The translations under genes and the position numbers were made by a program. DNA of 39,485 nucleotides from Candidatus Kapaibacterium sp. (GTDB lineage Bacteria > Bacteroidota > Ignavibacteria > Kapaibacteriales > UBA4661), in assembly GCA_025358765.1 (NCBI GenBank), contig JANYIG010000027.1:1-39485 (forward strand), given 5' to 3'. The first letter of the stretch is position 1; every line of letters starts with the position of its first letter. The notes under the pieces are model-generated. The model was not told the DNA's origin, searched no databases, and was given only the letters and a program-made list of their open reading frames with translations. Of this stretch, positions 11,344-36,509 are shown piece by piece.

Positions 11344-11349
11344 CTCCTT
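11344..11349 (-). promoter_or_regulatory. Shine-Dalgarno AAGGAG deciding the second exbD start
   Basis: AAGGAG on the minus strand, 6 bases before the ATG at 11337, favours that start over upstream in-frame codons. Confidence 0.6.
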
Positions 11350-11430
11350 GGTTAATGAGATATATTCAAAAGGTAAACAAATTGACAACCAACAGATGGG
11401 TGGATAACGACACTATCGGTCTGATGCTTC

Positions 11431-11449
11431 TCGCCAAAACTCTTGGCGA
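11431..11449 (-). other. Short hairpin between the two exbD genes
   Basis: TCGCCAA (11431-11437) and TTGGCGA (11443-11449) form a 7-bp stem with a 5-base loop inside the 124-base gap between the exbD copies. There is no T-run after it, so it is not a standard terminator. It could be an RNA-processing or stability element. Confidence 0.35.
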
Positions 11450-11461
11450 AAGCCAACTTTA

Positions 11462-11974: not shown

Positions 11975-12002
11975 AATAGTTCTCCGGGATAAGGATGGAC
12001 AA

Positions 12003-12785
12003 TTACTTCTTCACTTTTACCGTCAAAATTTCCGTTGTGCTAAGGATTGTCTCATCAATGATGTAGGTGAAGTTATCCACCTTCGTCGTGAAGAAATTGT
12101 AGAATACAATACAGATAACAGCACCGATAAGACCGCCCGCCGTGTTGTACAATGCCTCAGAGATACCGATGGAAAGCGATTGTGCCGATACCGTACCGCC
12201 CGCACCAAGAGCCGCAAACGCACGAATCATCCCAAGCGTCGTGCCAAGCAAACCCACCATCGTTGCGATGGATGCAATCGTGGAAAGCATAACAAGGTTT
12301 TTTTCGAGCAGTGGTGTTTCGAGGTTCGTTGCTTCGTCAATAGCTCGCTTGATTTCAAGCATTTTCTTTTCTGGGTCAAGACGGTCGTTGTCTTTCACGG
12401 TTTCATATTTCTCCAAGCCCGCACGAACAATGTTTGCAAGGCTACCACGTTGCTTATTGCAAGCATCAAGTGCACCAGAGATGTCGCCTGATTCAAGCAG
12501 GTTGTGAAGTTTTTTTATAAAAGCTGGCATTGCTTCTTTACCATTTGCCTTGGCAAGAGCCAAAAAGCGCTCAATCACGAACGTAATAGCAATAAGAATA
12601 AATGCCATCAACAATGCCACAAGCGGACCGCCTGTATGAATCGTACCTAAAATATTACCCGGAAGCGGTTCGTGGCGCATTGCACCGTCCTTAAAGTTTG
12701 CTGGAGCACCCATGACAAACCACCAAAAAGCAAACCCAACAATAACGGAAAGCGTGATTACAATGGTATTCATTGCATTTTTCAT
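12003..12785 (-). CDS. exbB: ExbB/TolQ/MotA proton-channel protein
   Basis: This 260-residue membrane protein has an extra N-terminal helix (about 7-25), then a helix around 52-72 (GPLVALLMAFILIAITFVIERF) and a cytoplasmic middle (about 75-155, LLESGDISGALDACNKQRGSLANIVRAGL). The paired core helices follow: ATMVGLLGTTLGMIRAFAALG and SIGISEALYNTAGGLIGAVICIVFYN. The GLLGT(T)xGM and EALxxTAxGL motifs line the proton path in this family. It forms the stator ring that powers TonB together with the two ExbD proteins encoded just downstream. It starts 32 bases after the STAS gene and is probably co-transcribed with it. Confidence 0.93.
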   Translation of the reverse strand: MKNAMNTIVITLSVIVGFAFWWFVMGAPANFKDGAMRHEPLPGNILGTIHTGGPLVALLMAFILIAITFVIERFLALAKANGKEAMPAFIKKLHNLLESGDISGALDACNKQRGSLANIVRAGLEKYETVKDNDRLDPEKKMLEIKRAIDEATNLETPLLEKNLVMLSTIASIATMVGLLGTTLGMIRAFAALGAGGTVSAQSLSIGISEALYNTAGGLIGAVICIVFYNFFTTKVDNFTYIIDETILSTTEILTVKVKK

Positions 12786-17770: not shown

Positions 17771-17820
17771 AAAAAAAGAGGAGATAGTCGTTAGCAATTC
17801 GCTACTCTCACTATCTCCTA
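17771..17820 (-). terminator. Rho-independent terminator of the giant/OmpA/DUF3108 unit
   Basis: AGGAGATAGT (17779-17788) pairs perfectly with ACTATCTCCT (17810-17819) around a 21-base loop. In minus-strand sense CTTTTTTTG follows. It lies about 120 bases past the DUF3108 stop. Confidence 0.82.
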
Positions 17821-17940
17821 ATAAAGTACAAAATCTGTACCAAGTTCTTTCAAGCTCCAATATTCAGCGATAGCAGCCCATATTTTTTCACTTTTGTACT
17901 CAACTTTGTACTCAACGTGAAATTTATTGCTTGAACCTTG

Positions 17941-18732
17941 CTACTGCGGCGGATTCCAGCCTTTGCGTGTCCATTTTGTGAGTTCGATATTCACTTTGCC
18001 GACCAGAACCTTCATCTTGGCTTTGATCGGGATGCGGGCATTGTCGTCGCTGAACCAGCCTTCAAAGTTACCTTCCAGACCGTAAATGCCTTTCCATTTT
18101 GCCTCGCCTTTGAAAAAAATAGTTTTGACGGGTAATTTTACAGCATCAATCTCGATAGACTCTTTTTGAATATTTTTAAAATCAATCAGTGTCCGCGACG
18201 TGTCGCTCATAATTGCTGTTGGAATGCTGACGCTACGTCCGCTCAACAACATCTGCCGTGCCGCGTAAAAGAGGGAACAGCCGTCGTTCCATTTTTTATT
18301 GGACGGGGTAATAATATCCACCTCATTCTTTTTTACCTCTTTGATGCCGCTTGTAATATGGATTTTATTATCGGGATAGAGGAAATCGTAGCGATCGTAT
18401 TCCCAGCCCTCTTTCGATTTTGTACTTGCCAAAAATTGTTGCGAAAACAACACAGAATTGTCAATCCAACTTTCAAACACCGAATGGAACTCCACAAACG
18501 GGATGCCGGGCGCAGTGTCAATATATACTTTTGCTTTGGTCACAGCATTACCACGAACAACATCAGCCTGCTCGGTGGAGAGTTTTATATAGCCCAACGT
18601 GATTCCTATATACGACACACGGTACTCAAGCTGTTCGCCCGGTTCCAGCACTTGTGCTTGGGTGGAAAAAGGGTGTAATGCCGCAACGAGAGTCATACAC
18701 AGCGCTACACATAAAAACTTCAGTGTTTTCAT
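17941..18732 (-). CDS. DUF3108-domain secreted protein
   Basis: Starting at the ATG at 18732 gives 263 residues with a clean signal peptide (MKTLKFLCVALCMTLVAALHPFSTQAQ). The longer frame (from 18816) would bury it and is not used. The rest matches the DUF3108 pattern: GEQLEYRVSYIGITLGYIKL near the start, a long beta-rich body, and VKTIFFKGEAKWKGIYGLEGNFEGWFSDDNARIPIKAKMKVLVGKVNIELTKW at the end. DUF3108 proteins are periplasmic or outer-membrane-associated and poorly understood. It is the last gene after the double-OmpA gene (90-base gap) and before the terminator, so it is probably part of that operon. Confidence 0.8.
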   Translation of the reverse strand: MKTLKFLCVALCMTLVAALHPFSTQAQVLEPGEQLEYRVSYIGITLGYIKLSTEQADVVRGNAVTKAKVYIDTAPGIPFVEFHSVFESWIDNSVLFSQQFLASTKSKEGWEYDRYDFLYPDNKIHITSGIKEVKKNEVDIITPSNKKWNDGCSLFYAARQMLLSGRSVSIPTAIMSDTSRTLIDFKNIQKESIEIDAVKLPVKTIFFKGEAKWKGIYGLEGNFEGWFSDDNARIPIKAKMKVLVGKVNIELTKWTRKGWNPPQ

Positions 18733-18822
18733 AGAAAAAGGGTTGATTCTGGGAACGTAAGTTATTCGAGACAATAAACGATTAAATCCCCACAAAATTG
18801 AGTAGAATATATGCAATTACGC

Positions 18823-21051
18823 TTATTGAATCGGAGTTTCTATCGTAATCGTCACCGTGCGGCAGTAATAACGCCCTTCGGGAAATTCATTATCATACAA
18901 CAGATCGTCTTTGCCCACGCCGCGTACGGTCATGTTTCCGCGTGCAATCACAGCGGCAATCTGCTGGGCGCGTTGTTCGGCAAGTTTCCGATTGTAATCG
19001 GCAGAACCGGTGCGGTCGGTGTAGCCGATAATTTCCACGTCGGAGTTCGGTTTCACGCGCTCTTTCACAAATTCTGCCGTGCGCCTGTGAATCGGGCTGA
19101 GTTCCGCACGGTTGAAGTCGAACAGAATCAAACTAAAGTGTTCGTATTCTTTGTCTTTCCGCATTTCACGGCGTTTTTTCTGAATCGTGATTTGTCGCAC
19201 GGGCAGTTGCCCAGCCTCGCCTTCAAAGGTCTGTCCGTTGTTATCCGTGATATACGGCGTATAAATAAAGGGTTTTTCCGTGCGAATCGCATTCCGCGCG
19301 GCTTCACTGGCTTCCTTCATAAATTCCCAATCAATATTTTTTGGCGGGTCGCCCGCGCCACTAAACCCACGCACGAGTTGATTGTTCTGTTCCACAAGCA
19401 ATCTCCATTTTTGGACACCAGATTCCGCCTGCGCGTTTAATTTGAAGCGGGCAATCGGCGGTGACGCAAAACGCAGCGTGTCCGGCGTAACAATCCATTC
19501 GGTGATTTCCGGCAAATCGGAGGTGATTTCTACACGGCGATTTTCCTCGATTTTGTCTGCTTCGCTCACAGGAATAGATGGGTTTTCCGAAAGGTTCCGG
19601 GCGCGAATGATGATGCGGTTTGGGTCGAGCTTCCACGCTTTTACAAGGTATTCCCGCACGGCTTCGGCGCGGTTGAGCGAGAGCGGCAAAGCGGCTTTTT
19701 CAATACCGTTGTTCGAGTTGCAACCCGTAAGCGTCACCGTTGCCTTCGGGAAGGTTTTCATGCGTCGCCCGATGATGTTCAAAATCTGGCGGTAGGCAGC
19801 AAGCGGGTCGAAATTGAATAATTGCGAAATCGTAAATTTATTCGCCTCGCCGGACGAAAGTTGTGCATAGCGTTCCGGGATTTCCGCCGAATTTTCCTCG
19901 AAAAACACGTAATTTAACAACGGCAAATACCGCTGCCCCAAAAATTCTTCCACACGGATTTCCGCAACCGGCATTTCCGCGCCCTTTTCCGTGACACCCA
20001 CCGCCGTCACCGACCCCGTTACGGGCGGTTTGCGGACGATGAGCGTGTCCGTCCGATACATACGTTCCCGGATAGTTCGTGTGTTGGCGGCAAGCGTCGT
20101 GTCTCGCGTGAATACTGGTATGCCAATAAAAACGCTTTCCGGCTTGTTGATGGCAAGCGGACGTTGGACGCGAACAGTGTCAATAATGTCACGTTGGTCG
20201 CGGCGTTCACGTGGTTCGACGGGCTTGGGGAACGAGTATTTAAGCGCTACTCCGGCACGGAGTTGGTTCAGATTCCACACGCCGCCATTCTCCAAACCAC
20301 TCACCACGGGATTCAAACCCAGCATATAGAAGGCTTCCGGTGTGACAAAAAGCGTTCCTCCGGCGTTGTTTGCGCCCAAACCAAGGGGAATCTCGTAACC
20401 AACGCCACCAACGGCAGCAAACTGCAATGCTGAGGCTTGGGGAAGTGTGCCAGAATGCACATTCCGTTCGCGAGAACCATTTTCAAATGTAAATTTATTA
20501 GGAACAGAGCTTGGAATAGCTTCGCTTTGAATGAACGACTTTTGCAGCATATAACCACCTCGCAACCCAGCCTGTATCTGCAAACCGCCAAACGGATTAA
20601 ACATCAACAACGGCTCAAAACCAATACTGCCAAGGCTTGTAACAATGCTATATTCAGAAACAGCACCGTCCTCTTCAAAATAAAATGTCCCGTCCGGCGC
20701 ACCAAAGCTGGTTTTTTCGATCGCTTTGAGCGTGATATTATGCGTTGCGTACTCGGCACGGAGGGCGAGCCGGAGTTTTGTAGCAAGGGGTATTTCCACC
20801 AGAACACCAGCCGCAACGCTGCTTCCAGAAGCGTTGCCAAAGGGAAATGTATCATTCTCCCGTTTGATGATACCGGGCAGAGCAAGAAAATTTACTAAAT
20901 GTTGGTTAAGGTTATATGCTCCGAACACACCAAAGCGCACAGATGGGGCATTGTCGGCTGCTGCTGGTTGCTGTGCAAACAGCGTGGAAGTCGTTCTAAG
21001 ACAAACCCACAAGACCAGTAAAAAAGCACGTTGTATCGTTTTCATTGACAT
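18823..21051 (-). CDS. OmpA-family outer-membrane protein with two OmpA domains
   Basis: The likely start is the ATG at 21051 (742 residues, MSMKTIQR); the upstream in-frame codon at 21069 is TTG. A signal peptide is followed by an eight-strand-like barrel (about 36-276, SVRFGVFGAYNL through AGVALKYSF) and a linker. OmpA domain 1 is at about 380-511 (YVFFEENSAEIPERY, LNRAEAVREYL, ENRRVEI), an Ig-like middle at about 515-620, and OmpA domain 2 at about 638-742 (LFDFNRAELSPI, GYTDRTGSADYN, LAEQRAQQIAAVI). Domain 2 keeps the Asp and Arg that bind diaminopimelate in peptidoglycan. In domain 1 the GHTD motif is GCNS, so binding there is doubtful. It follows the second giant gene and shares its C-terminal plan with the protein at 36510-39194. 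Confidence 0.88.
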   Translation of the reverse strand: MSMKTIQRAFLLVLWVCLRTTSTLFAQQPAAADNAPSVRFGVFGAYNLNQHLVNFLALPGIIKRENDTFPFGNASGSSVAAGVLVEIPLATKLRLALRAEYATHNITLKAIEKTSFGAPDGTFYFEEDGAVSEYSIVTSLGSIGFEPLLMFNPFGGLQIQAGLRGGYMLQKSFIQSEAIPSSVPNKFTFENGSRERNVHSGTLPQASALQFAAVGGVGYEIPLGLGANNAGGTLFVTPEAFYMLGLNPVVSGLENGGVWNLNQLRAGVALKYSFPKPVEPRERRDQRDIIDTVRVQRPLAINKPESVFIGIPVFTRDTTLAANTRTIRERMYRTDTLIVRKPPVTGSVTAVGVTEKGAEMPVAEIRVEEFLGQRYLPLLNYVFFEENSAEIPERYAQLSSGEANKFTISQLFNFDPLAAYRQILNIIGRRMKTFPKATVTLTGCNSNNGIEKAALPLSLNRAEAVREYLVKAWKLDPNRIIIRARNLSENPSIPVSEADKIEENRRVEITSDLPEITEWIVTPDTLRFASPPIARFKLNAQAESGVQKWRLLVEQNNQLVRGFSGAGDPPKNIDWEFMKEASEAARNAIRTEKPFIYTPYITDNNGQTFEGEAGQLPVRQITIQKKRREMRKDKEYEHFSLILFDFNRAELSPIHRRTAEFVKERVKPNSDVEIIGYTDRTGSADYNRKLAEQRAQQIAAVIARGNMTVRGVGKDDLLYDNEFPEGRYYCRTVTITIETPIQ

Positions 21052-21093
21052 CGCTACAAAATAGAACAAAGGTGGTGGTTAGAAATCAAGATA

Positions 21094-21127
21094 GTAGAGA
21101 CAAGACAGTACCTTATCTCTGCGTTCT
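21094..21127. repeat. GTAGAGACAAG palindromic repeat, copy 1
   Basis: GTAGAGACAAG (21094-21104), a 7-base loop, then CTTATCTCTGC (21112-21122) and GTTCTACGCC. It lies between the stop of the second giant (21133) and the OmpA gene start. The arms differ by two bases from perfect complementarity. A near-perfect second copy is at 39191-39219. Confidence 0.75.
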
Positions 21128-21132
21128 ACGCC

Positions 21133-24100
21133 CTATCGAATAATGGTCAAGCGCTTTGAAACCGCTTGAAGCGGGCAGCGCAAATTTACAAAATAGATAC
21201 CCGTCGGCAAGCTGTCTGTCAAAAGGTCAACAGCATCCGCACCTTGTTTGGCGGCTTTGATGATTGTTTTTTCACGACTTAATCCAATTTCTTGCTCCAA
21301 TCCTAACGTATTCGTAAGCGTTATCCGCACTTCCACGGGTTGTTTTGTTTCGTAATTCACGGTCACTTTGCCGCTTGAAACAGGATTGGGTTGAAGGTTT
21401 GTGACGACAATAATATCTGCTCCGCTGTTGATAAGCCGCGTTCCATCTGTGTTGGAAATTCCTGTGAGCGTAAACACACTGTCGCTGCTTGCCCGCAAAG
21501 AATCAACACCGGCAATGCCTGTTGTGCCAACGGTTGACAATAGCGCAGCACGGTCGAGTGTAAGCGGTGTGAAGGTATTTGTTCCCAATGCAGCTCGGAA
21601 ACGCAGGGTGTCAAGCGGCAAAGCCTCGTTTGCAGAGCGAACGAGCGCTTTGAGCGGAATAAAACGTTCTCCAAGTGTGACGGAACCTTGTCGCGCAGAA
21701 TCAAGTGGTTTTAGCAATGACGCATAGTAGCGCAATCGTACGGAAACTGTATCGCCAATATTCACATTCTTGCGCTCGCGCAAATAGAGCCGTAGTGCAA
21801 CCGTATCGCTCGCACGAGCGCTCGCAGAGCCGATAAAAACTTGCCCTTCTGCTGGAAGTCGAACCGGCGGAAGCGGTTTTGCGCCAATCTGCGCTTGGAA
21901 CCGCACAGTGACGGGCTTGCACAGATTTGGCGTGGGTACAAGGCTGTATTGTGTGTCGAAGGTTTGCACCACCGAAGTCGCAGCGACGGCTGTAAAGCGC
22001 ACTGTGACAAGCGATGTCTGTGTGCCTGTTGTTGGCGTGATTTGCGGCACAATGCTTTGCACCGTGAATGCACCTACCACGACAGGCGCAGCAGCCCACG
22101 AAAGCGGCAAGCTCCCAGTATTGCGGATGCGGAACGTCAACGTGGAGTCGCGGTTTGGTGGTACGGTTCCGAAGTCCAAAATGTAGTCGCCCATCGGATT
22201 GGGCAAACCTTCGGGAATGATGATGGCGGTTTCGTTTTTGCCGAAGATGGAAAAAGTGACGGTTGTATCCTTCGAGACAATAGTAAGCGTCAGTTTTTTT
22301 GTAGTCGTAGTGCCAACTTGCGGCGCGAAGCGCACTGTAAACGATTTGGACGCGGTATCGAGCGTTGTATTGCGGTAACTCAACGCTGATTGATACTCGA
22401 AATCCAAAGTGTCGCCCGTTGCTGTGATATTAGTGATGGTCACGGGTGTGTGCGTTATTGCATTCATAGTGATAGATGCAAAAGCCTCTTTAGAACACGT
22501 CGTTCGCAGCATAACAGCTTGGTCTGGCGTAATTTTTATGCCTCCTTTTTCCGGCGGGAGAATGACCGTCGTTGGAAATTGAGCCACAATAGGAAGCGGC
22601 AGGGAAAAGCATTGATACATAAGTGGCAGCGTGGAAACTGTCCTTGTACCCGCCGCACCGCCGGGTATTGCAATAGTCAAGGTTGACGTTTGCCCTAAGC
22701 CCGTCACATCTGGTGTTACGGTAATAATTTTAATGCCGTTGCCCAGGTTTATGGGCAAAACATTCTTCCAGCCCAGTGTTGTCGCACCCGTGTTGATGAG
22801 CGTTACGGCAATGATTGTGTCCTTGCCGGGCGTGACAGAAAGCCGTAGGGTGTCAAACGCGGATGACACGCCAACAACGCGGAATCCGAGCGAATCCTTG
22901 CGAGCAGTAATGGGAATGCGAATTGGCAGCACGGTTGTGTCTTTTGCACGAATGGTCACGGTATCGCGTACGCCCGACACAAGAGCTGTCGAGGCAAACG
23001 TCACCACCAGCATCGTCGGGCTTGTTGGCGTGACACTTGTGCGCGTAAACGAAGCGCGGAACAGACTTGCGTTCTGGACTTCCGGCGGAGCAAGTTCTAC
23101 TGCTCCTGTGCTTTGGATGACGATGCTCTGCGTGGTAGCGGCATCACACGCGGGCTGCGCGAAATTCAGCCGTTGCGTAGCAGTGGTGATGCCAAGCGGC
23201 GGCGGCGGCTCGCACGATATCCCCTCACCGAAAAAGCGGATAATCGCAGGACTATCGCGTCCTTCGTAGAAAAACCCCATGCTGCCGCTAAATATTCCAA
23301 CGGATTCCGGTCTGAACCCAACGGCGAGTTTAACTTCTTGTTGTGGTGCTAATTCCAAGATATTCGATTGTGCATTAAGATTGCGAAATGATTTTGTATC
23401 CGGTCCGAGTGCGCTATTAAAGTCTGTGACCTTTATTATTGTTGTTCCGACATTTTTGAAGGCGACTATTGTCTGAGAACTCGCATCAGTATTCAGACAA
23501 ACCCTGCCAAAATCTATGGTTGCCGTGATAATTTTAATCTGTTGTTGAACACCTCTACCTTCAATCGTCGGAATTGCGCCGTTGGCAAGCCGGACAGTAT
23601 CGCCGCCGCTTGTCGTTATCAGCACTTGAAACGGACCGTACTTCACTGCGTCTGCTGGCGTGAAGCGGAATTCAATCGTCTGCGTTGCGCCCGGGACAAG
23701 CGTAAACGACTGCGGAGACAACACCTGAAACACCGTGCCTGCGGGCTGAATCTGGATGTTGCGAATCGTGACGGGTACACTGGATGTATTGCGAATATAT
23801 GCCACAACGGTCGAATCCCTCGCAATACCTACCGTTTGGTCGCCCATGTTTATGTTGCCCGCCACAACAGCTTTGGGTTGGATAATCGCCCAAAGATTGT
23901 CGGAAATAGCTTCTTGCACAACGGCTGGGGGCAGATTTGGGCTTTCGATGTAGGCACGTGTAGGAGGTTCTTTTTTGGTAACGACCAACAGCAAGCCACG
24001 ATCAGCACTGAGTTCTGCGCGTTTGACGGGAGCCGGATAGGGATACATAGTAGATTCTTTTGTATTCACATTCCAAATTCTCACTGTATTATCATCGCCC

Positions 24101-26484
24101 GCACTCACTAAATATGCGCCGTCGCTGCTAAATTGCAACGAATTAACAGCGCCGGAATGCCCGTCAAACGGAATGGATATATGCTTCGTTCCGCCCGTTG
24201 CATCAAGCGTCCAAAGCAAAATTTGACCGCTCGCATCGCCCGTTGCAATGAACCGACCCGTTGGATCATACACCGCCGTCTTGAACGCCTTGAGGAAAGG
24301 GTCAAGGTTGGGATTTGTAATAACGGTTTCTGGTAGGTCCAAATTTTTGACATTCCAGACTTTGACCAATCCATCATCGCCAGCCGTGATGAAGTGGCTT
24401 CCGTCAGGGCTGTAAAATGCAGTATTTACTTCGCCAACGTGCGGCGAATCTGTCTTTTTAAGGTCTGTTGTATTCGTCGCGTTCAGGATGGATGCTACGC
24501 CATTGGACTGTGCAACAAGGATGAATTTTTCATCAGCCGGATTAAATACTGCGGTGTTGATAGTGACGTTAAGACCCGATTTGATAGGGACAAAACCGTT
24601 TGGTGTACCATGATAGATATTGTCACCAGCAGCACCCGCCATGCGCGTCCCATCACCGTTGAACGAAATGTAATTAAATCCTGTATTGTTGCTAAACTGG
24701 GAACCGATTTGGTAGGTTGCATTCGTTACACCCCAAAAACCGGTCTGATTCCGTGCTGTAATGGCAACTCCTACAATGTTCTTGCTGTCCGGGGTGAATG
24801 CGGCAAACGTAACACTATTAACAGGTTGCAATGAACCATCAATAGCAATATCTTTCAAGACATCACGAGTACGATTGGTCGGGGTAGTTGGGTCATACTG
24901 CGTCACGCGCATCAGACAGCGGTAATCCGTTGTGTCGGGAATACCTTTCCATGGATATTGTGCGCCAGTAACGGTATTGGCAAGCAACTTCCACGTTTTG
25001 CCGCTGTCGAGGCTGTAATCAAGCCTCACGGTGGCATCGTCGGGTAAACCTGACCAGCGAACCGACGTGTCACCTTTTGCAATCAACTGCTCGCCGCCAT
25101 TCGGAAACACGAGCTTCAGCGCAGGACTATTCGCCTTAACGCCCGGATAACCTGCCGAGAGCGGCACGGATACCGTACAGCCGTCTTGCACAATCGTGAG
25201 TTTTGCATACACATACCCTTGGTCAATGCTTCCATTCGGCAGCTGCGTTGGTTTGTAGGTAATCGTCACGGGCAGAGAACCACCGCTCGGAACCAAACCC
25301 GACGAGGGAAACGCCGTAAATCGTGTGTCGCTTGCCTTGATACTGCTAATCGTGTAGCTCGCTCCTGCTGGTGCTTGCAGCGTGATAATCGTGTCTTTCT
25401 GCGTACCCACTGACACACCTTTCATGCTGACGTACAGACCCGGAGGCGAGACCCGAAGCGGCGGCTTGGTCGGCTTGAGCGCCACGTACTGCGTTGTGCC
25501 AACAGCAAACGTCGGTGGAAAAGTCAGCGAAATCTGTACGTCGCGTATTTCCGTTTCGCACGGGCGGTCGGTTTGCCAAACAAGTTCGCACGTGGTAGGC
25601 GACATAGCATAGAGCAAATCGCCATAGAGTTGGCGCGTGAATTTTTGTGCTGTGGCGGGGTCGAGGATGTTTTCATAGACGCTGCCGCCTGTTGCCGCTG
25701 CCAATGCACGGAACGACACGGCAATCTGTGCGCTTGAGTTTGCGGACGGACCAAACAGCATTGCAAAAAATTTAATGTTGTACTTTTTGCACGTGTCAAT
25801 GCACGCACGGAGATCCTCGGCGGAAAGCGGTGTCCAGATTGCATCCGACAATAATACCGCCACACGCTGCGACGTTGCCGTATCCAATCGCGAGTGCTTT
25901 GCAACGTTCAGCAGTCCCGTGTTTGGGTTCAGTAGGTGTTCATGGAAATCGTTGTTCCCACCTTTATTCACCGGAAACGCCGCAAGCACATTCGCCTTGT
26001 TCGTAGTGAAATCTTGCATGATGAGTGAGGCGTGGTCGCACCACTGCACGGCGACTTCTGACGTTGGGAATTGTACCAGATCGAGTAATCCAGCAGCAGA
26101 TGTTTTCGCCATGTCAATCGAACGATTATCCGTTGCGCCACCAGCAAACATTGAACTCGACACATCAAAACTCATTGCCATCGAGATATTTTTGAGCACA
26201 AGCGGCGTGGCATCACAGTTACGAACTTCGAGAACGGGTCGGGGCATGCTGCTAACCTGTTTACCGTCTTTGACGATGCTTTCGGTAACGGTAAATTTAT
26301 CCGCTGACAAGTTTCGGAGCGGTTTTCCGGCAGCATCCACCGCAAGAAACTGCACCTTTACGCTTGGTACGGGCATTTGTTGAAAACCCGTCGTATCCGG
26401 TTTCGAGACGGAGAGCGTTTGTGCGGAGAGCGAAAACGAAAATATTGCGGCAAGCAAAAGTGCGAATATTGCGAATGCCCTCAC
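21133..26484 (-). CDS. Giant surface protein: VWA, WD40 propeller, ASH repeats, T9SS tail (second of pair)
   Basis: I set the start at the GTG at 26484, giving 1783 residues, because it directly opens a normal signal peptide (RAFAIFALLLAAIFSFSLSA, cut before QT) and GGGAG lies 9 bases upstream. The frame is open back to 26673, but that would add 63 residues before the signal, encoded partly by palindromic repeats. Order from the GTG: VWA domain about 100-290 with MIDAS DVSSS; ASH-like segment about 350-440; NGGE Ig-like domain about 460-535; WD40 propeller about 555-865 (GDDGLVKVWNV, GDDNTVRIWNV); several choice-of-anchor/ASH domains to about 1570; cohesin-like sandwich; and a C-terminal T9SS type A tail (LQPNPVSSGKVTVNYE ... 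GIYFVNL ... LTIIR). Likely exported and surface-attached. Partner unknown; function may be adhesion or sensing. Confidence 0.85.
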   Translation of the reverse strand: MRAFAIFALLLAAIFSFSLSAQTLSVSKPDTTGFQQMPVPSVKVQFLAVDAAGKPLRNLSADKFTVTESIVKDGKQVSSMPRPVLEVRNCDATPLVLKNISMAMSFDVSSSMFAGGATDNRSIDMAKTSAAGLLDLVQFPTSEVAVQWCDHASLIMQDFTTNKANVLAAFPVNKGGNNDFHEHLLNPNTGLLNVAKHSRLDTATSQRVAVLLSDAIWTPLSAEDLRACIDTCKKYNIKFFAMLFGPSANSSAQIAVSFRALAAATGGSVYENILDPATAQKFTRQLYGDLLYAMSPTTCELVWQTDRPCETEIRDVQISLTFPPTFAVGTTQYVALKPTKPPLRVSPPGLYVSMKGVSVGTQKDTIITLQAPAGASYTISSIKASDTRFTAFPSSGLVPSGGSLPVTITYKPTQLPNGSIDQGYVYAKLTIVQDGCTVSVPLSAGYPGVKANSPALKLVFPNGGEQLIAKGDTSVRWSGLPDDATVRLDYSLDSGKTWKLLANTVTGAQYPWKGIPDTTDYRCLMRVTQYDPTTPTNRTRDVLKDIAIDGSLQPVNSVTFAAFTPDSKNIVGVAITARNQTGFWGVTNATYQIGSQFSNNTGFNYISFNGDGTRMAGAAGDNIYHGTPNGFVPIKSGLNVTINTAVFNPADEKFILVAQSNGVASILNATNTTDLKKTDSPHVGEVNTAFYSPDGSHFITAGDDGLVKVWNVKNLDLPETVITNPNLDPFLKAFKTAVYDPTGRFIATGDASGQILLWTLDATGGTKHISIPFDGHSGAVNSLQFSSDGAYLVSAGDDNTVRIWNVNTKESTMYPYPAPVKRAELSADRGLLLVVTKKEPPTRAYIESPNLPPAVVQEAISDNLWAIIQPKAVVAGNINMGDQTVGIARDSTVVAYIRNTSSVPVTIRNIQIQPAGTVFQVLSPQSFTLVPGATQTIEFRFTPADAVKYGPFQVLITTSGGDTVRLANGAIPTIEGRGVQQQIKIITATIDFGRVCLNTDASSQTIVAFKNVGTTIIKVTDFNSALGPDTKSFRNLNAQSNILELAPQQEVKLAVGFRPESVGIFSGSMGFFYEGRDSPAIIRFFGEGISCEPPPPLGITTATQRLNFAQPACDAATTQSIVIQSTGAVELAPPEVQNASLFRASFTRTSVTPTSPTMLVVTFASTALVSGVRDTVTIRAKDTTVLPIRIPITARKDSLGFRVVGVSSAFDTLRLSVTPGKDTIIAVTLINTGATTLGWKNVLPINLGNGIKIITVTPDVTGLGQTSTLTIAIPGGAAGTRTVSTLPLMYQCFSLPLPIVAQFPTTVILPPEKGGIKITPDQAVMLRTTCSKEAFASITMNAITHTPVTITNITATGDTLDFEYQSALSYRNTTLDTASKSFTVRFAPQVGTTTTKKLTLTIVSKDTTVTFSIFGKNETAIIIPEGLPNPMGDYILDFGTVPPNRDSTLTFRIRNTGSLPLSWAAAPVVVGAFTVQSIVPQITPTTGTQTSLVTVRFTAVAATSVVQTFDTQYSLVPTPNLCKPVTVRFQAQIGAKPLPPVRLPAEGQVFIGSASARASDTVALRLYLRERKNVNIGDTVSVRLRYYASLLKPLDSARQGSVTLGERFIPLKALVRSANEALPLDTLRFRAALGTNTFTPLTLDRAALLSTVGTTGIAGVDSLRASSDSVFTLTGISNTDGTRLINSGADIIVVTNLQPNPVSSGKVTVNYETKQPVEVRITLTNTLGLEQEIGLSREKTIIKAAKQGADAVDLLTDSLPTGIYFVNLRCPLQAVSKRLTIIR

Positions 26485-26491
26485 TCCAACT

Positions 26492-26520
26492 CTCTCCCTC
26501 ACGGAGACGTGGCGGGCGAG
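26492..26520. repeat. CACGGAGACGTG palindromic repeat, copy 1
   Basis: An imperfect hairpin with left arm 26492-26503 (CTCTCCCTCACG), loop GAGA and right arm 26508-26520 (CGTGGCGGGCGAG). It lies immediately upstream of the proposed GTG start and supplies the GGGAG that serves as its ribosome-binding site. It pairs in inverted orientation with copy 2. Confidence 0.65.
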
Positions 26521-26537
26521 GTCTTCAAAACTGGCTT

Positions 26538-26568
26538 CTTCTCCCCCACGGAGACGTGGTGGGAGAAG
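26538..26568. repeat. CACGGAGACGTG palindromic repeat, copy 2
   Basis: CTTCTCCCCCACG (26538-26550), loop GAGA, then CGTGGTGGGAGAAG (26555-26568). The stem is perfect apart from one bulged base. The loop and inner stem are the same as copy 1. Confidence 0.75.
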
Positions 26569-26676
26569 GTTAGGATGAAGTGACCAAATACGGCTCATAG
26601 AGCCAAAAAGGGATAAAATCATGCGAATCATAGCGTAAAAAAAACTGGTGGTGGAGAGAAATAATCCCATCAAAAA

Positions 26677-29600
26677 CTACCGAATGATGGTGAGTTTGCG
26701 GGTAAGCGCCTGAAGCGGCGACCGCAGATTGAGAAAATATACGCCCGGTGTGGTAATGCCGGACAGATTGAGCATAAACTGATTTCGAGTTGATGGAAGC
26801 GCCTTTTGCATAAGTTTCGCCTCGCCCGCAGCGCCAATCTTTTGCTCGCGTCCGAACAAATCCGTGAGCGTACATTCCACAGACATTTCTTGCTTCACGT
26901 CGTATTCCACCGTCGCGTCACTATTAGATGATGGATTCGGCTGAATACTGACGTTCGTAATCACCTCCGTCGCACCGTTAATCAGCCGCGTTCCGTCCGC
27001 GTTCGATAAATCTTTGAGCGCAAACATGCCGACCGTTGCGGTTGTCAAGAGAACCGTTGGCGACGTTACTTCCAGAAAAAGCGGCGTAGAAATATTATTT
27101 CCCAACGCAGCACGGAAACGCAACACCGCAACGGGTACACTCTCATCTGCTTGCGAAAGGGTGAGCGGAATTGGGATTGCACGAACACCGCTTTGGACGG
27201 TGCTTGCAGGCATGACGGATTGAACGCCGGATGCCACAATAAAGAGCGGTTTCAGCAATGAAGCGTTGTACGAAAGTGTTACCATGCCGATGTCAGCATT
27301 CATCAGCTCCGGCGTGATGTTCCGGCGGTTCCGCACGAAGAGTCGAATATTCACGGTGTCGCCCGCACGGGCGCTTGCGCTGTCGATTTCCACCGTTGCT
27401 GTGGGCGGCATTGCCACGAGTTGCAACCGTTTTGTGTGATCACATTCATCCGTAAAATCGTAAAAATCTCGAATCTCTTGTGGCGACGAACGCCCAAGAA
27501 ATTCGACCGTCACCGTCCCAGCCGCATCGCGGGGCAAGGGATTGGGTGCAAGACTAATAGTAAACATACCGCTTGACGACCGCGCTGGCAGATTTTTCCA
27601 TACAAGCGGCAGCGAACCGATATTCCGTATTGTCAGTGTCTGCGTTTTTGTAACAGTTGGCGCATTGATAAACGTCAGCGCCGATGCCGAAAGCGTAAAG
27701 TTACGATTGTCGCTGCGTCCCGAAAGCGGGATGCGAAGCGGTGCAGCAAGCGTGAGGTCGGCATTGTGGCTGTTTGAGTACAGAACAATCGTTGCGGCTT
27801 TCGAGCCAGTATCGCGCGGCACAAACTGTACCGTCAACGAAGCTCCCACAGCAGATGCAGAGCCGCCGGTGGGTGGAATTATGATTTTATCTTTGGGTTG
27901 TACGGTGAAATCACCCGCATTTGCGCCTTCGATGCGGACGGAATCAATCACTAATGCTTCATCCGTACCACGATTCTTCAGCAATAAGAAAAATTCTTGC
28001 TTTGCGAATATAAACTGATCCAAACACATAAGCGTGTCGCGCCAAGTATATGAACGGACATCCGTCACAATCACCGCATATGGCACAGCAATGGCAACAG
28101 TGAATGGAAGCGGTTTCTGAAGCCCACATTTGTCGGCGGTGAGCATAAACACATCACTCAGACGGTACTCGCTACCTTTGTCGCCACCCGTGAACCGCAC
28201 CCGCACTTGTACCGTATCGCCCGGCAGAAGCGGAGCGTTTGGAACCCCTTTTGTAAGCCGCGCAATCGTAAAACGACCCGCAGTAAGAGTGCTTGCGAGG
28301 TTTGCGAACACAAGCAGCACAGTTCCCGTGTTGCGAACCGCAAACACCGCATCACGCACGGCTCCGACTGGAACATCCGTAAATTCAACGTTTGCCGATG
28401 TGCCGCCTGTAGGAGATTGCACCGAAAAATCAGCCACGTCCTTCGTCGCACGGAGCGTAAACGTAAGCACAGACAGGTTGCCTGCGTTGGAACGCACGGT
28501 AAGCGTGGAAGTTTTCACGCCCGTGAATTTTGGCGCAACAAGGATGCGTACCGTATCGCTCGACAGCGCTTGAATGCTTGCGGGGCGCTTTACAAAACTG
28601 AAATCATCCGTATTGGAAAGCGTCGCGTCAATTTCGAGTGCCTGCGAGCCGAAGTTCGACAGAACAATATTTTTCACAAATGACGTTCTGCACAAGAGCG
28701 TATCCGCCGCAAGCCCCGTGCCATCTGTGCTGCCAGTCGTCGTAGCGGTCGTAATGGCGGGAAACGTAGGTTTTGTGGTTGCCGCAAGCGTGAACGAATT
28801 TCCGCAGAACTCTGGAAACGCAGCCGTTGCGCTAAAATTTTTGCCTAACGAATCGGCGATAATGCTCATGGTTACTTGCGCGACGGCTCCGGCTTCAATG
28901 CGCGACGGCAGTGTTTCGATGCGGAAATAGCGCCCAAACGCAAGAGGCGGTGCGAACGTAAGCGGCAGCGTACCAGTATTTCGCAGGGTGAGCTGTTTAC
29001 GAACTGGTTGCCCAAGCGTGGCAGTGCTTGTCGCCACAAGTCCAAATTGTACGGGGTTTTCCGACAACGTGAAATCATAAAACAGCCGTTGTACGCTCAC
29101 ACTTAAAAAAGTCCGTCCGTTTGCGTCAGCACTTACGTCTGCGTTTGCGCCGGTTGAGATGACGATGATGCTCCCACGTGTGCTGCTTGCAAGCGGCGAT
29201 GTAGTATTTATGTCCATCGAAAGACCGATAGAATCTTGTTTTCCAACGTCAATTGCCTTTGGAAAGCGAACGACGCTTACGCCAGCAATACTGGAAAGTA
29301 CGTTTGTGATTACAAGCGGCTTCGTACCGGTGTTTTGCACCACGAGTGTTGCAGTAATGCGGGTTTCGCAGCGCAAAATGGATTGCAGTTCGGTTGCTGT
29401 CAGGCGCGGCGCATTCAAAATGCCTGTGCCGTACAAAAAGCCATACACAGGGCTGCCAGCACCGCTTGGGGATTTGTAGTAGAACGCCACCCGCGCTGCC
29501 ACTTGACCAATCGCCTTCGGCTGGAACGCAAAGGAAAGCGACTGACTGCCATTTGTTGTAAAGCCTTTTGCGTTACCGTCCACTTGGCTAAATGGCGCGG

Positions 29601-32600
29601 TTCCGGCATCGTAAGGCGTTCCATCGGGGCGCAAAATCCGCACCGAATCTATCACGAGCGGCTTTCCCATAAAAGTGCTGGGAATATATTTTAATATAAA
29701 GCGGTCGGGAAGCGAAACGAGCGCATCCACTGTCACGCTGCCAAAGTTGAGCGAATCGCCTGCCACAGAGAAATCTATGCCAATGCCCGAAATCGTGGGA
29801 ATGGCTTTGGCGGCAGTGCGGAGCGTATCGCCGAGCGAACGAATAATCATTTGCGCCGTGCGAGTAATTACTGCGCTTGGACGAAAGCGAAACTCGACCT
29901 CAGCGCTGCCGCCTGCCGCAATGGTGAACGGCGGAAGATTACCCACAACGCTAAAATCCCCGCGTGCTATGCCGTCGAACGTGATCGCGTCAATCGGTAA
30001 AATTGTGGTTCCTGTGTTACGAATCACCGCAACAACCGAGCTGTCGCGATAACTCCTGAACGGCGGCATTGCAAACGGCTTATCTACCAACACCTCACCC
30101 ATCTGCACGTCCTTCGCAACCGACAACGGCTTAAGGATTGCCCACACGCTATCAGATATATCTTCTTGCAAAAACGGTTGGTTGTTGTAGCCTTTCCAGA
30201 TGATTGCTAAACCGTCGCTTCCGGCAGTCAAGACTTGCTGGTTATTTTTGGGATTAAAAAAGGCTGTATTCACCGCGCCTTTGTGACCAACGCTGTTGCG
30301 GAGCGTGGCAATGCCCGTACCCGTCTTGGCATCCCAGACGCGGGCAGTGCTGTCGTCGCTGGCAGTTACTATCAACGTACCATCGGCGCTGAACGCCGCA
30401 CAGTTCACGCGCTTGGTGTGTCCGCGTAAGACGGCGATTTGTGTTTGAGCGCTCCAATTCCATATCTCTGCCATGCCATCTTCGAGCGCAACGACCACGA
30501 GATTGGGCTTCGTGGGGTGGAACGAGGCGTAGTTGGCGCTGGTGCTGAATGGAAGCGTTTGTAGTTTTGTTCCATTAAAATCCCAAATGACAACAGTAGC
30601 ATCAGCGCTTGCAGTGGCAACATAGGAAGCACCGATGCCGCCAAAAACCGCAGATTTTACGATACCCTTGTGCCTGAGAATGAGGGACTTGGGTGAGGAT
30701 GCCTCCCCCATTTTAGTAAGGGGATTATAGGGGGTGCAATTATAAATACGAGCCGTGCTATCGTTGCTGGCAGTCACAAAGTATCGACCATAATCGTCAA
30801 AGCCGATTTTCGTAACAATGCTGTCGGGCTGGGGGCCGACATCGAAATTACACGACCGCGATTGACCAATGCTGGGACTGCCGGTTTCAAATTTCGATGC
30901 CACGACGCATTTCTCATTGGGTACGAACACGGCATCCAATGTTGGTCCCTTGCCGCTGCCTAAAAATTGGGATTGCTCTACCCCATTTGTATCATACATA
31001 CGATAATCACTGCCTTGCGGAGCAACAACAACCAGGCTTCCATCAGTATTATAGCGAGCAGAGTTCACGCGCCCGCTAGCGTCTATCTTCGTCTGCGTAT
31101 CGGTCTTACTCCGAACACTATTATCGCTGAGTTGTTGCACACGCATCAAACACAGTTCACTGGGCGTGTCGGGAATGCGCTTCCATATGTAGCTTAACCC
31201 TGTTGCGGTATCGGCGACGGTACGCCACGTTTTACCGTTGTCAGTACTGTAATCAAGTTTTACGCTGTCGCTCGGCAGAATCCCCTTCCACGTTATCACG
31301 GTGTCGCTGCCCACCAAAAAACGCTCGCCACCGTTGGGTTTTACGAGTGTGAGCATGGGGAGCTTTGGTTTGATAGTGGCATTGCCGCCGGAGAGCGGAA
31401 TAGATTTCGTACACACAGATGTGGTAATGACAATGCTGGCGTTTACATAGTCTTCGTCGGTAGGTTTGAAGGTCACGCCAAATTTTTGCTCAACGCCTTT
31501 TTGTAAACTTTTAATGGTTGCCGCTGTCGCGTCGAGTTTGAAAGGCGAGTCCACAGGAAGAATCTCAATTTTCACGGATCCCACGTCCTCGTTTGCCGAA
31601 AGAATACCCACAGAGGATGTTGGTGCCTTGCCGACTGACACGATGCCAAAGGAAAGCGGTGGTCCAGCGACAATCTGAACGCTCGCTCTGTCCGAAGAGT
31701 TGTAAGTCAAAGTAACCAAATCGGTACCCAGCGTGGGCGTAACAATGCCAATCTGTAACAGGCGCGAGCGGTTACTTTCGCACTGAGGTTTGCTTATCCA
31801 TGACAACTCACAAGGTTGTGTTACCTCGACTTGTAACACACTCGTAGCAAGCTGTTGGGTAATAATGTTTGCTTGTGCTTCGGTGAGTACATCTTCGAAC
31901 ACCTGCCCACCCGTTGCGTTTGCTATTGTTTTGAGCGAATTAGCAATAACACCACTACCGGTACGGTAATTCGACGGACCGAGTACAAAAGCGTAAAAAC
32001 GGATATGTTCTCGCTGGCAAAGCTGAATACACTGCTGCAAAGCAGCGTCGGGAAGCGCCGACCAGAAAGCATCCGTAAATAGCATTGCCACACGATTCTC
32101 GCGGTTTCGACCTCTCGCAGCCAATGGCAGCAATCCAGATTGAGGGTTTAAAAGCTGTTCAACAAAATCATTCCCGCCATTAGCTCCTCGCGGAAAGCTC
32201 TGTAGGACAGCAGCTTTGTCATTCGTAAAGTCAGATGCGATAAAGGCGTGATCGTTGCAAATTTGTGTCGCTACCTCCGTTATAGAAAAATCCAATCGTG
32301 TCAATAATGTTGCTGCTATAGCATTACTTAGTTGATAACGATGGCTACGATTGTTATCTACGGCTGCCCACATAGAGCCGGATATATCAAAACTCAGTGC
32401 CAGCGAGAGTGGTTGCGGCGTTGCCGATGGAGGAGGCGTTGGCGGACAAGTAATAGTGATGCTCGTGGAAGTAACAGGCGTACCGTTTTCGGTAATAACA
32501 AACTGGCTTGGTATAAGGTCTTTCAATTGCCTGCCCGTGGAACGATCGGTTACAAGAATATCTGCTTTAACACGATTGGACTGGTCGTATCCTGTCGTAT

Positions 32601-32763
32601 TAACATTGATGACAGTCAGGCGAACTTGACTGAGGGCAAGACTTGGGGTAAAACTCGAAAGCACTACGATGAAAGAACAAACCGACGCAAGCATCCTACG
32701 ATGGCTATACGGGCGGTTCGACCTTTCGTTGCCGTTTATTAGACGTGATACAAAACAGCGCAT
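26677..32763 (-). CDS. Giant surface protein: VWA, WD40 propeller, ASH repeats, T9SS tail (first of pair)
   Basis: This 2028-residue paralogue of the giant encoded just downstream has a signal peptide at about 24-45 (MLASVCSFIVVLSSFTPSLALSQ); an ATG at 32694 is a second possible start. Order: VWA about 115-315 with MIDAS DISGS (126-130); linker/ASH segment to about 460; NGGE Ig-like domain about 473-545; WD40 propeller about 562-875 (SNDSTARIYN, SADATVVIWD, SDDSTARVWD, GSDGLAIIW). A long series of choice-of-anchor/ASH Ig-like domains runs about 885-1770. A cohesin-like sandwich (VEIDSASARAGDTVNIRLFVRN) follows, then the T9SS tail (IQPNPSSNSDATVEYD ... GVYFLNL ... RKLTIIR). Residues about 677-693 look like an absorbed DNA repeat. 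The protein is probably T9SS-exported and surface-exposed; no enzyme domain is seen. Confidence 0.87.
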   Translation of the reverse strand: MRCFVSRLINGNERSNRPYSHRRMLASVCSFIVVLSSFTPSLALSQVRLTVINVNTTGYDQSNRVKADILVTDRSTGRQLKDLIPSQFVITENGTPVTSTSITITCPPTPPPSATPQPLSLALSFDISGSMWAAVDNNRSHRYQLSNAIAATLLTRLDFSITEVATQICNDHAFIASDFTNDKAAVLQSFPRGANGGNDFVEQLLNPQSGLLPLAARGRNRENRVAMLFTDAFWSALPDAALQQCIQLCQREHIRFYAFVLGPSNYRTGSGVIANSLKTIANATGGQVFEDVLTEAQANIITQQLATSVLQVEVTQPCELSWISKPQCESNRSRLLQIGIVTPTLGTDLVTLTYNSSDRASVQIVAGPPLSFGIVSVGKAPTSSVGILSANEDVGSVKIEILPVDSPFKLDATAATIKSLQKGVEQKFGVTFKPTDEDYVNASIVITTSVCTKSIPLSGGNATIKPKLPMLTLVKPNGGERFLVGSDTVITWKGILPSDSVKLDYSTDNGKTWRTVADTATGLSYIWKRIPDTPSELCLMRVQQLSDNSVRSKTDTQTKIDASGRVNSARYNTDGSLVVVAPQGSDYRMYDTNGVEQSQFLGSGKGPTLDAVFVPNEKCVVASKFETGSPSIGQSRSCNFDVGPQPDSIVTKIGFDDYGRYFVTASNDSTARIYNCTPYNPLTKMGEASSPKSLILRHKGIVKSAVFGGIGASYVATASADATVVIWDFNGTKLQTLPFSTSANYASFHPTKPNLVVVALEDGMAEIWNWSAQTQIAVLRGHTKRVNCAAFSADGTLIVTASDDSTARVWDAKTGTGIATLRNSVGHKGAVNTAFFNPKNNQQVLTAGSDGLAIIWKGYNNQPFLQEDISDSVWAILKPLSVAKDVQMGEVLVDKPFAMPPFRSYRDSSVVAVIRNTGTTILPIDAITFDGIARGDFSVVGNLPPFTIAAGGSAEVEFRFRPSAVITRTAQMIIRSLGDTLRTAAKAIPTISGIGIDFSVAGDSLNFGSVTVDALVSLPDRFILKYIPSTFMGKPLVIDSVRILRPDGTPYDAGTAPFSQVDGNAKGFTTNGSQSLSFAFQPKAIGQVAARVAFYYKSPSGAGSPVYGFLYGTGILNAPRLTATELQSILRCETRITATLVVQNTGTKPLVITNVLSSIAGVSVVRFPKAIDVGKQDSIGLSMDINTTSPLASSTRGSIIVISTGANADVSADANGRTFLSVSVQRLFYDFTLSENPVQFGLVATSTATLGQPVRKQLTLRNTGTLPLTFAPPLAFGRYFRIETLPSRIEAGAVAQVTMSIIADSLGKNFSATAAFPEFCGNSFTLAATTKPTFPAITTATTTGSTDGTGLAADTLLCRTSFVKNIVLSNFGSQALEIDATLSNTDDFSFVKRPASIQALSSDTVRILVAPKFTGVKTSTLTVRSNAGNLSVLTFTLRATKDVADFSVQSPTGGTSANVEFTDVPVGAVRDAVFAVRNTGTVLLVFANLASTLTAGRFTIARLTKGVPNAPLLPGDTVQVRVRFTGGDKGSEYRLSDVFMLTADKCGLQKPLPFTVAIAVPYAVIVTDVRSYTWRDTLMCLDQFIFAKQEFFLLLKNRGTDEALVIDSVRIEGANAGDFTVQPKDKIIIPPTGGSASAVGASLTVQFVPRDTGSKAATIVLYSNSHNADLTLAAPLRIPLSGRSDNRNFTLSASALTFINAPTVTKTQTLTIRNIGSLPLVWKNLPARSSSGMFTISLAPNPLPRDAAGTVTVEFLGRSSPQEIRDFYDFTDECDHTKRLQLVAMPPTATVEIDSASARAGDTVNIRLFVRNRRNITPELMNADIGMVTLSYNASLLKPLFIVASGVQSVMPASTVQSGVRAIPIPLTLSQADESVPVAVLRFRAALGNNISTPLFLEVTSPTVLLTTATVGMFALKDLSNADGTRLINGATEVITNVSIQPNPSSNSDATVEYDVKQEMSVECTLTDLFGREQKIGAAGEAKLMQKALPSTRNQFMLNLSGITTPGVYFLNLRSPLQALTRKLTIIR
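30685..30735. repeat. Repeat-like insertion inside the WD40 propeller
   Basis: CCCCC at 30705-30709 and GGGGG at 30730-30734 flank an AT-rich centre. The block resembles the CCCCCT...TAATCCCC repeats common in Bacteroidota intergenic DNA. It is translated in frame as about 17 extra residues (TPYNPLTKMGEASSPKS) in the loop between two WD40 blades. Confidence 0.5.
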
Positions 32764-35373: not shown

Positions 35374-36249
35374 ATGACACACTCCATAACCATTACCACA
35401 CAGCGCACACAACGGTTATTGCTTGGATACGGAGCCGCATTTGTGGTACTCATCTTTGCAAACCTCACCACTGCTCACGCGCAGGATGACCGCATGGCAT
35501 CGCCGCTCGACCTTGGTCGCCAAGAAGTGCCGGAGTTATTAGGCGTGGTTGTGGGACCGAGTTTCCACAAACAACTTGGCTCCTATCAAAGCGGCTGCCC
35601 ATGCACCTTCGACAAAGGCGGCGCAAATAATTTTGTCTTTGGGTTGAGTTACGACAAAAACCTCGTCACTTACGGCTCCAACACGAAAGGTGGCTTGTGG
35701 TTTGGTCTGCGTGCTATGTACGAAACACGTAATGTAGCAGCGTTATTCACGGAGTACGAAAATGTCCGTGTGCGCTCGCTAACGACAAACGAACTCTTTA
35801 CCACGCCGATTCAGTTTCAGCAACAAGCCGATATTCGTTTTTCGATGATTACGTTGACTCCAACCATCACGTGGTATCCCTTCGGGCGCGTGTTTGTGCA
35901 AGGCGGATTCCAAGCGGGCTTAGTGATTTCCTCGCATTTCAAACAAACAAAAAAATTGCAGCAAAATACTGTCACACTCCCCACCGGCGAAACAGCTGTA
36001 GTGCAGTTCACGCAAACGGATGGCAATATATTAACGATTGAAGAGGGTGCGGTGCCTCAGACCAATGCATTGCAGCTTGGATTCACGATGGCTGCGGGCA
36101 TAGACATTCCCGTTGGTTCCAATGCAAAATTCCGCCTCACGCCGATGATTCAAAACGTGTTTCCGCTTACCAATTTGTCCAATAGTGGTGATGGTTTCCG
36201 TATCAACGCCGTGCAACTGCTGTTAGGCTTAAAAATGAATCTCAAGTGA
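35374..36249 (+). CDS. Outer-membrane beta-barrel protein, small
   Basis: This 291-residue protein has a signal peptide (LLLGYGAAFVVLIFANLTTAHAQ) and a body that matches porT/OmpA-like barrels: GVVVGPSFHKQLGSYQ near the start, alternating strands with aromatic girdles (ITLTPTITWYPFGRVFVQGGFQAGLVI) and a terminal strand VQLLLGLKMNL. It is similar in plan to the N-terminal barrel of the double-OmpA protein encoded at 18823-21051 (FEPLLMFNPFGGLQIQAGLRGGYML). CPC in SGCPCTF could form a disulfide. It precedes the PD40/double-OmpA gene on the same strand and may share its transcript. Function unknown; porin or structural. Confidence 0.75.
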   Translation: MTHSITITTQRTQRLLLGYGAAFVVLIFANLTTAHAQDDRMASPLDLGRQEVPELLGVVVGPSFHKQLGSYQSGCPCTFDKGGANNFVFGLSYDKNLVTYGSNTKGGLWFGLRAMYETRNVAALFTEYENVRVRSLTTNELFTTPIQFQQQADIRFSMITLTPTITWYPFGRVFVQGGFQAGLVISSHFKQTKKLQQNTVTLPTGETAVVQFTQTDGNILTIEEGAVPQTNALQLGFTMAAGIDIPVGSNAKFRLTPMIQNVFPLTNLSNSGDGFRINAVQLLLGLKMNLK

Positions 36250-36320: not shown

Positions 36321-36441
36321 CACAGAAGCACGGAAACGAAAGACTTCATGATGAGTACTCATCAACCATTAACCCAATGGAACAACAATAAAAACACCAT
36401 GATATTCATGGTAGGAAGCTGTGTTCTTCCGTGTTTTTGTG
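36321..36441. repeat. Long-range inverted repeat ahead of the PD40/OmpA gene
   Basis: CACAGAAGCACGGA (36321-36334) can pair with TCCGTGTTTTTGTG (36428-36441), with two G-U pairs. It encloses about 90 bases and lies in the leader of the 36510 gene. Sequences of this TCCGTGTTTCTGTG type recur in Bacteroidota genomes as dispersed repeats. Confidence 0.45.
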
Positions 36442-36509
36442 GTTCTCCTCTCTTAGCAACTTTTACTTCGCTCAGTACCTTCCTTCACTCTCACACTCTA
36501 CCACCTACC

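Follow-up and report, generated by a model that had tools for sequence, protein, structure and literature searches.

Organization of the locus

The window analyzed here is a stretch of 39,485 nucleotides from Candidatus Kapaibacterium sp., one contig (JANYIG010000027.1) of a 4.86 Mb draft genome from the order Kapabacteriales (also Kapaibacteriales), of which 61 genomes from 27 genera were searched. Within positions 17941-32763 four genes lie on the minus strand, at the coordinates that an initial annotation of this DNA had given: two tandem genes for giant proteins with C-terminal tails for the type IX secretion system (T9SS), the gene for P0003, a protein with a predicted barrel and two OmpA domains (hereafter double-OmpA protein), and a DUF3108 gene (Table 1). 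Genes for giants or other T9SS cargo repeatedly form a same-strand unit with the gene of an OmpA-type outer-membrane protein; this unit occurs across the order and is broader than this locus. The possible role of P0003 as an anchor that ties the giants to the cell wall is weighed below.

A hairpin just past the DUF3108 gene was spotted by eye and confirmed by folding (-20.4 kcal/mol, z -4.4), and it is followed by a T run, in agreement with the terminator placed there by the initial annotation; the terminator scan omitted it. The promoter scan stayed at background, with 15 promoter-like matches versus 14.9 expected. Between the two giant genes lies a palindromic-repeat-like element (window 26480-26580, minus strand; CACCACGTCTCCGTGGGGGAG ... 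CGCCACGTCTCCGTGAGGGAG), and because of this position co-transcription of the four genes is unproven. The longest open reading frame (ORF) of giant 2 reads through the element; translation probably begins beyond the first in-frame TTG, at a later codon by the hydrophobic N-terminal stretch just past the repeat. A peptide resembling that of the repeat element (SPQTSPKGRT) precedes a P0003 paralog at another locus (L194). The initial annotation listed neither this element nor the cohesin-like domain ahead of each tail, nor the N-terminal 8-strand barrel of P0003.

Table 1. Genes, domains and signals of the window (aa, amino acids; Ig, immunoglobulin; MIDAS, metal ion-dependent adhesion site).
Feature	Position	Strand	Remarks
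Giant 1 (P0001), 2028 aa	26677..32763	-	VWA, ASH, small Ig-like, WD40, ASH/choice-of-anchor-D repeats, cohesin-like, T9SS type A tail
VWA domain, giant 1, residues about 114-311	31831..32424	-	DxSxS and third-motif Asp; MIDAS Thr replaced by Asn (GGND)
Seven-bladed WD40 propeller, giant 1, residues about 555-859	30187..31101	-	domain search and predicted structure
Cohesin-like domain, giant 1	26983..27390	-	family profile; Pfam Cohesin in family members; PDB profile matches
T9SS type A sorting domain (TIGR04183), giant 1	26686..26943	-	24.1 bits with neighbors in frame
Giant 2 (P0002), ORF 1846 aa, protein about 1800 aa	21133..26673	-	domain order as giant 1
VWA to small-Ig region, giant 2	24841..26367	-	family alignment
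Cohesin-like domain, giant 2	21433..21834	-	family profile
T9SS type A sorting domain, giant 2	21145..21390	-	25.4 bits
P0003, 748 aa, putative outer-membrane partner	18823..21069	-	8-strand barrel, OmpA, Ig-like, OmpA; directly downstream of giant 2
P0003 barrel, residues 45-279	20233..20937	-	homologous to the separate barrel gene at 35374-36249
P0003 first OmpA, residues about 371-517	19519..19959	-	peptidoglycan-binding Asp unconserved
P0003 second OmpA, residues about 620-747	18829..19212	-	Asp685/Arg700 peptidoglycan-binding pair
P0004, DUF3108 gene, 291 aa	17941..18816	-	DUF3108 match E 2e-16; same strand, ahead of terminator
Intrinsic-terminator-like hairpin 3' of DUF3108 gene	17780..17840	-	folding and T run
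P0006, separate barrel gene	35374..36249	+	homologous to P0003 barrel, E 6e-48
P0005, PorE-like gene	36348..39194	+	PD40 propeller and two OmpA domains; OmpA homologous to that of P0003, E 1e-117

Domain architecture and distribution of the giants

Both giants run in one order from a hydrophobic N-terminus (ending in SLALSQ and SLSAQ, as read from the translations) through VWA, ASH, a small Ig-like domain, WD40 and ASH/choice-of-anchor-D repeats to a cohesin-like domain and a T9SS type A tail, and they are 38-43% identical at their ends. Their description as same-strand tandem paralogs with a shared domain order was thus correct, with WD40, ASH and type A tails present in both. The tails pass the curated TIGR04183 cut-off, which is 23 bits in the genome search, with 24.1 and 25.4 bits. 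For the cohesin-like domain, Pfam Cohesin (PF00963) was recognized in 8 of 28 family members when E values up to 0.1 were allowed (the best being 5e-6), giant 1 not among them, and the family profile retrieved mostly cellulosomal scaffoldins from the PDB (best E 5e-4), which is a weak likeness. This domain is a candidate docking module for a partner.

The VWA domain gave only a sub-threshold match (TIGR03436) in the window giants themselves. Its assignment by the initial annotation is supported at the family level, where 18 of 20 members match VWA_2, and by an AlphaFold model that covers residues 50-990 of giant 1 (alignment of 83 rows, mean predicted local distance difference test score (pLDDT) 86), in which the VWA region has the expected alternating pattern of helices and strands. 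This model is confident across the VWA, ASH, Ig-like and propeller regions. As had been claimed, the WD40 propeller is intact, at least in giant 1, where it is complete with seven blades (Z 41.7, root-mean-square deviation 1.6 over 282 residues compared with a designed seven-blade protein). The VIA-align and Foldseek listings obtained with the giant 1 model contained propellers only and did not cover the VWA and ASH folds. The residues of the VWA metal site are conserved in the family at 98% (D), 92% (S), 94% (S), 81% (T) and 98% (D).

Giant 1 was matched in all 61 searched genomes of the order, and its relatives are multi-copy in them. Among 120 VWA giants chosen by similarity to giant 1 alone, profiles detected WD40 in 96, the tail in 88 and the cohesin-like domain in 76, and the domains run in the same order along the protein. 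VWA/WD40 giants are ordinary for their order, and the suggestion that the combination of VWA and WD40 is unusual in T9SS cargo was not upheld. When 296 genomes were drawn from across the phylum, the VWA-to-Ig region found near-full-length matches nowhere but in this order and in two genomes that belong to other families of its class; in the remaining members of the class mostly the small Ig-like domain alone was matched. Within the paper library searched, VWA domain, WD40 and T9SS occurred together only in a general review, and type IX secretion, OmpA and choice-of-anchor in no paper.

The two giants fall in one well-supported clade of 12 rows, five of which adjoin a double-OmpA gene. A recent tandem duplication as their origin was ruled out, as the VWA regions are 37% identical and the branches within this clade are long. 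At locus L078 (G017:C69) several VWA giants stand in tandem on one strand, in an array that ends at a double-OmpA gene; one of these giants seems to be split, by a frameshift or an assembly error, into parts of 759 and 674 aa.

The double-OmpA protein and its split counterpart

The identification of the two genes after the giants as encoding an OmpA protein and a DUF3108 protein was borne out by the domain searches. In the model of P0003 (mean pLDDT 90) an 8-strand barrel comes first, followed by two OmpA domains with an Ig-like domain between them. The top structural matches are OmpA domains, and one of these (3td5) is a complex with a peptidoglycan peptide. Asp685 of the second OmpA domain is kept in 83 of 83 sequences and Arg700 in 82 of 82; this pair binds diaminopimelate in OmpA domains, which is consistent with the peptidoglycan binding that had been predicted. 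The PorE model NF052230 matched P0003 with 28.3 bits, compared to a cut-off of 600, and in the OmpA part only. As P0003 fails the PorP/SprF and PorE models and its barrel is 8-stranded, we do not assign it to either family and propose no more than a similar role.

A twin-cysteine motif (CC or CxC) occurs in the loop between barrel strands 1 and 2, probably outside the cell, in 52 of 83 double-OmpA proteins. It was considered in view of the disulfide link that reportedly joins SprF/PorG to GldK, and was not used because the cysteines of SprF are located in the C-tail, the motif lies between the first two strands, and P0003 lacks it. The separate barrel protein P0006 harbors the motif as CPC.

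The genes of P0006 and P0005 sit on the other side of the giants, beyond the next gene, and the barrel gene precedes the PorE-like gene. P0005 scores 141 bits with the PorE model (cut-off 600). From its homology to P0003, this pair looks like a split version of the P0003 design, located beside the fused form. Elsewhere in the window (8718-12785, minus strand) PBP-like (periplasmic binding protein) and TonB genes cluster with one ExbB and two ExbD genes.

Pairing of double-OmpA genes with T9SS cargo

Double-OmpA genes were picked only by similarity to P0003, with their neighbors ignored. This gave 20 resolvable genes in a first set and 86 in a second, from 77 loci of named metagenome-assembled genomes (MAGs). 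A T9SS-cargo gene on the same strand, usually directly upstream, was found for 15 of the 20 and for 55 of the 86, and an opposite-strand cargo neighbor for one and two genes, respectively. These counts do not represent independent events, because the loci share ancestry and the two sets have a few genomes in common; on the tree of the giants the pairing label changes at least 11 times. In the genome of the window itself, eight P0003-like genes were listed, and seven of them directly follow a T9SS-tail gene, with only about 140 tail places genome-wide. The median gap between the stop of the cargo gene and the start of the OmpA gene is 2 bp (65 pairs).

The pairing is linked to the cohesin-like domain, which nearly all paired cargo possesses. 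In the loci chosen by OmpA, 52 of the 58 T9SS-tail proteins that have this domain were paired, compared to 3 of the 34 that lack it (p 3e-15); in the loci chosen independently by giants the corresponding numbers were 20 of 67 and 2 of 39 (p 0.002). The distance matrices of the cargo C-terminal region and the barrel are correlated as well (Mantel r 0.76, 0 of 2000 permutations, 57 pairs; r 0.49 among distances above 0.5).

Two conserved arrangements were seen beyond the window. In the first, which is widely conserved, a VWA/WD40 giant is sandwiched between two double-OmpA genes, followed by a glycosyltransferase (loci L263, L275, L278, L279, L285 and L290); at L275 the protein encoded after the glycosyltransferase, an IgGFc-binding protein according to Pfam, matches the cohesin-like profile. 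In the other, one cohesin-tail cargo gene is followed by two double-OmpA genes (L236, L239, L251, L252, L268 and, in the genome of the window, L195). The flanking genes of the best-conserved OmpA-giant-OmpA cluster (glycosyltransferases, endonuclease III, pseudouridine synthase, IgGFc-binding protein) were considered as a clue to function and proved uninformative. Full double-OmpA genes with T9SS-tail genes nearby also occur at L235, labelled Armatimonadetes, and L287, labelled Ectothiorhodospiraceae; both MAG labels are probably wrong.

T9SS components in the order

Neither PorP/SprF (TIGR03519) nor type B tails (TIGR04131) were found above the cut-off in any of the 61 genomes; the phylum-wide positive control for PorP/SprF gave 17 of 80. 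PorV was present in all 21 genomes tested; in the genome of the window PorV scored 269 bits, and SprA 523 bits with neighbors in frame. In Flavobacterium johnsoniae and Porphyromonas gingivalis type B cargo pairs with PorP/SprF barrels, and the OmpA domain of PorE has been proposed to add a wall link for T9SS cargo or machinery. Type A cargo elsewhere relies on PorV, plus attachment to lipopolysaccharide (LPS) in P. gingivalis (PMC9143113, PMC12618676).

Proposed function and alternatives

From the computed domains, the pairing and its cohesin link, the negative searches for PorP/SprF and type B tails, and the presence of PorV and SprA, we infer how export, adhesion, physical contact and anchoring might be arranged. 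As type A cargo, the giants would be exported by Sec, pass the outer membrane through the SprA translocon with PorV and be displayed on the surface. The ASH/choice-of-anchor-D Ig-like repeats would form a stalk that carries VWA and the WD40 propeller as its binding heads; their role would most likely be adhesion, and the giants are probably adhesins. P0003 would be the cognate partner of giant 2 and perhaps also of giant 1. Its barrel would be inserted in the outer membrane while the C-terminal OmpA domain would grip the peptidoglycan, and it would hold the cargo on the outside, probably via the cargo C-terminal region with cohesin-like domain and tail. The P0003-type proteins of the order may thereby do in a single chain the job that PorP/SprF and PorE do for type B cargo elsewhere. 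We regard it as about evenly balanced whether P0003 is such a cognate outer-membrane wall anchor for T9SS giants, uniting roles that elsewhere are split between PorP/SprF and PorE. A wider version is more doubtful: that Kapabacteriales possess a second, cargo-specific T9SS layer, in which a fused barrel-plus-OmpA family, one member per cargo, recognizes the cohesin-like module by the type A tail and fixes the giants to the peptidoglycan, replacing PorP/SprF and PorE.

Several results weigh against P0003 as a cognate anchor. Starting from the giants, a double-OmpA gene was the immediate same-strand neighbor in only 21 of 120 (opposite strand 0). The initial annotation had held that giants regularly found without OmpA and DUF3108 neighbors would speak against its proposal, and this is half the case, as the giants mostly stand without an adjacent OmpA gene, yet the reverse link from OmpA gene to cargo is strong. 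Both VWA and WD40 are absent in 31 of 73 paired cargo proteins; the partner is therefore not specific to these giants and the pairing rule spans several cargo types. The 8-strand barrel resembles the OmpA/Ail type, and since type A cargo elsewhere uses PorV and, in P. gingivalis, LPS attachment, a further partner is not required. Co-inheritance alone would yield a Mantel correlation, which therefore indicates stable pairing and not contact. Finally, Asn replaces the MIDAS Thr in both window giants, which weakens the reading as metal-dependent adhesins.

Some of these points fit a different explanation, in which the double-OmpA protein is a general envelope stabilizer, co-transcribed with large cargo because both serve under the same conditions, with no cargo contact, and in which PorV and the usual attachment handle the cargo. 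OmpA domains are ordinary wall-binding modules, most VWA giants lack an adjacent OmpA gene, PorV occurs in 21 of 21 genomes, and type A cargo is known to depend on it (PMC12618676). However, the pairing tracks the cohesin-like domain (52/58 versus 3/34), and there are many paralogs, each with its own partner and with the two sides co-diverging, whereas a general stabilizer would need one or few copies. We consider this explanation rather unlikely, if a serious competitor. The double-OmpA protein might also act mainly as an export shuttle, a substitute for PorV or SprF that collects cohesin-tail cargo at the translocon, with wall binding being secondary. The gene order is the same as that of cargo and partner in F. 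johnsoniae, and PorP/SprF was not found above the cut-off in the 61 genomes, but PorV is present and suffices for type A tails elsewhere, and a predicted 8-strand barrel does not by itself suggest a PorV-like shuttle, so that this role appears improbable.

According to the initial annotation all four genes, including DUF3108, encode one dedicated surface apparatus, and their common strand, small gaps and the strong terminator-like hairpin past DUF3108 agree with this. However, the palindromic-repeat-like element separates the giants. A strong DUF3108 ortholog (39-63% identity) is present in 58 of the 61 genomes and is nearly always single. In 11 short DUF3108 loci of relatives no match to the double-OmpA protein was found, whereas the BadF ATPase gene of the window adjoins DUF3108 in five of them, with a weak match in a sixth. 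In genome G003, DUF3108 and a giant share one contig, some 70 kb apart. Given its essentially single-copy state throughout the order and the BadF ATPase gene as its conserved neighbor elsewhere, DUF3108 was ruled out as a functional part of the unit and regarded as a bystander, whose position here was judged incidental. A four-gene apparatus is thus very improbable; what stands of the dedicated surface unit is the same-strand recurrence of giants with an OmpA-type protein.

Type A cargo is thought to use one general shuttle, PorV, and cargo-specific outer-membrane partners have been described for type B cargo. If P0003 and its relatives are cognate anchors, type A giants with their own wall-binding partners would represent a second solution for retaining very large proteins on the surface. 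This would also provide a testable partner and a candidate docking module for uncharacterized choice-of-anchor proteins.

Comparison with known systems

The arrangement at this locus resembles SprB-SprF of F. johnsoniae and PG1035-PorP of P. gingivalis, in which a large cargo gene is followed by the gene of its barrel partner, in cognate pairs of which there are several per genome (PMC9143113, PMC12618676). In contrast to these, the tail is of type A (TIGR04183), neither TIGR04131 nor TIGR03519 was detected above the cut-off in the 61 genomes, and the barrel has 8 strands and is fused to OmpA domains. With PorE (PG1058) and PorE-like proteins P0003 shares a peptidoglycan-binding OmpA domain, which in PorE is proposed to connect the wall with T9SS cargo or machinery (PMC9143113), but P0003 harbors a barrel in place of the TPR and propeller domains and has two OmpA domains. 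The cohesin-like domain recalls the cohesins of cellulosomal scaffoldins, as indicated by the Pfam Cohesin matches of 8 among 28 members and by PDB matches mostly to scaffoldins; the similarity is weak and covers about 50-80 residues, and here the domain lies directly before a T9SS tail. The fimbrial protein Mfa5 of P. gingivalis, which matches the family profile with E 1e-8, likewise has a VWA domain in a T9SS-exported Bacteroidota surface adhesin. The portions consulted of the report on the MIDAS structure of Mfa5 describe a complete site, whereas both giants have Asn at the MIDAS Thr, and these portions mention no WD40 or cohesin-like domain for Mfa5 (PMC7835359).

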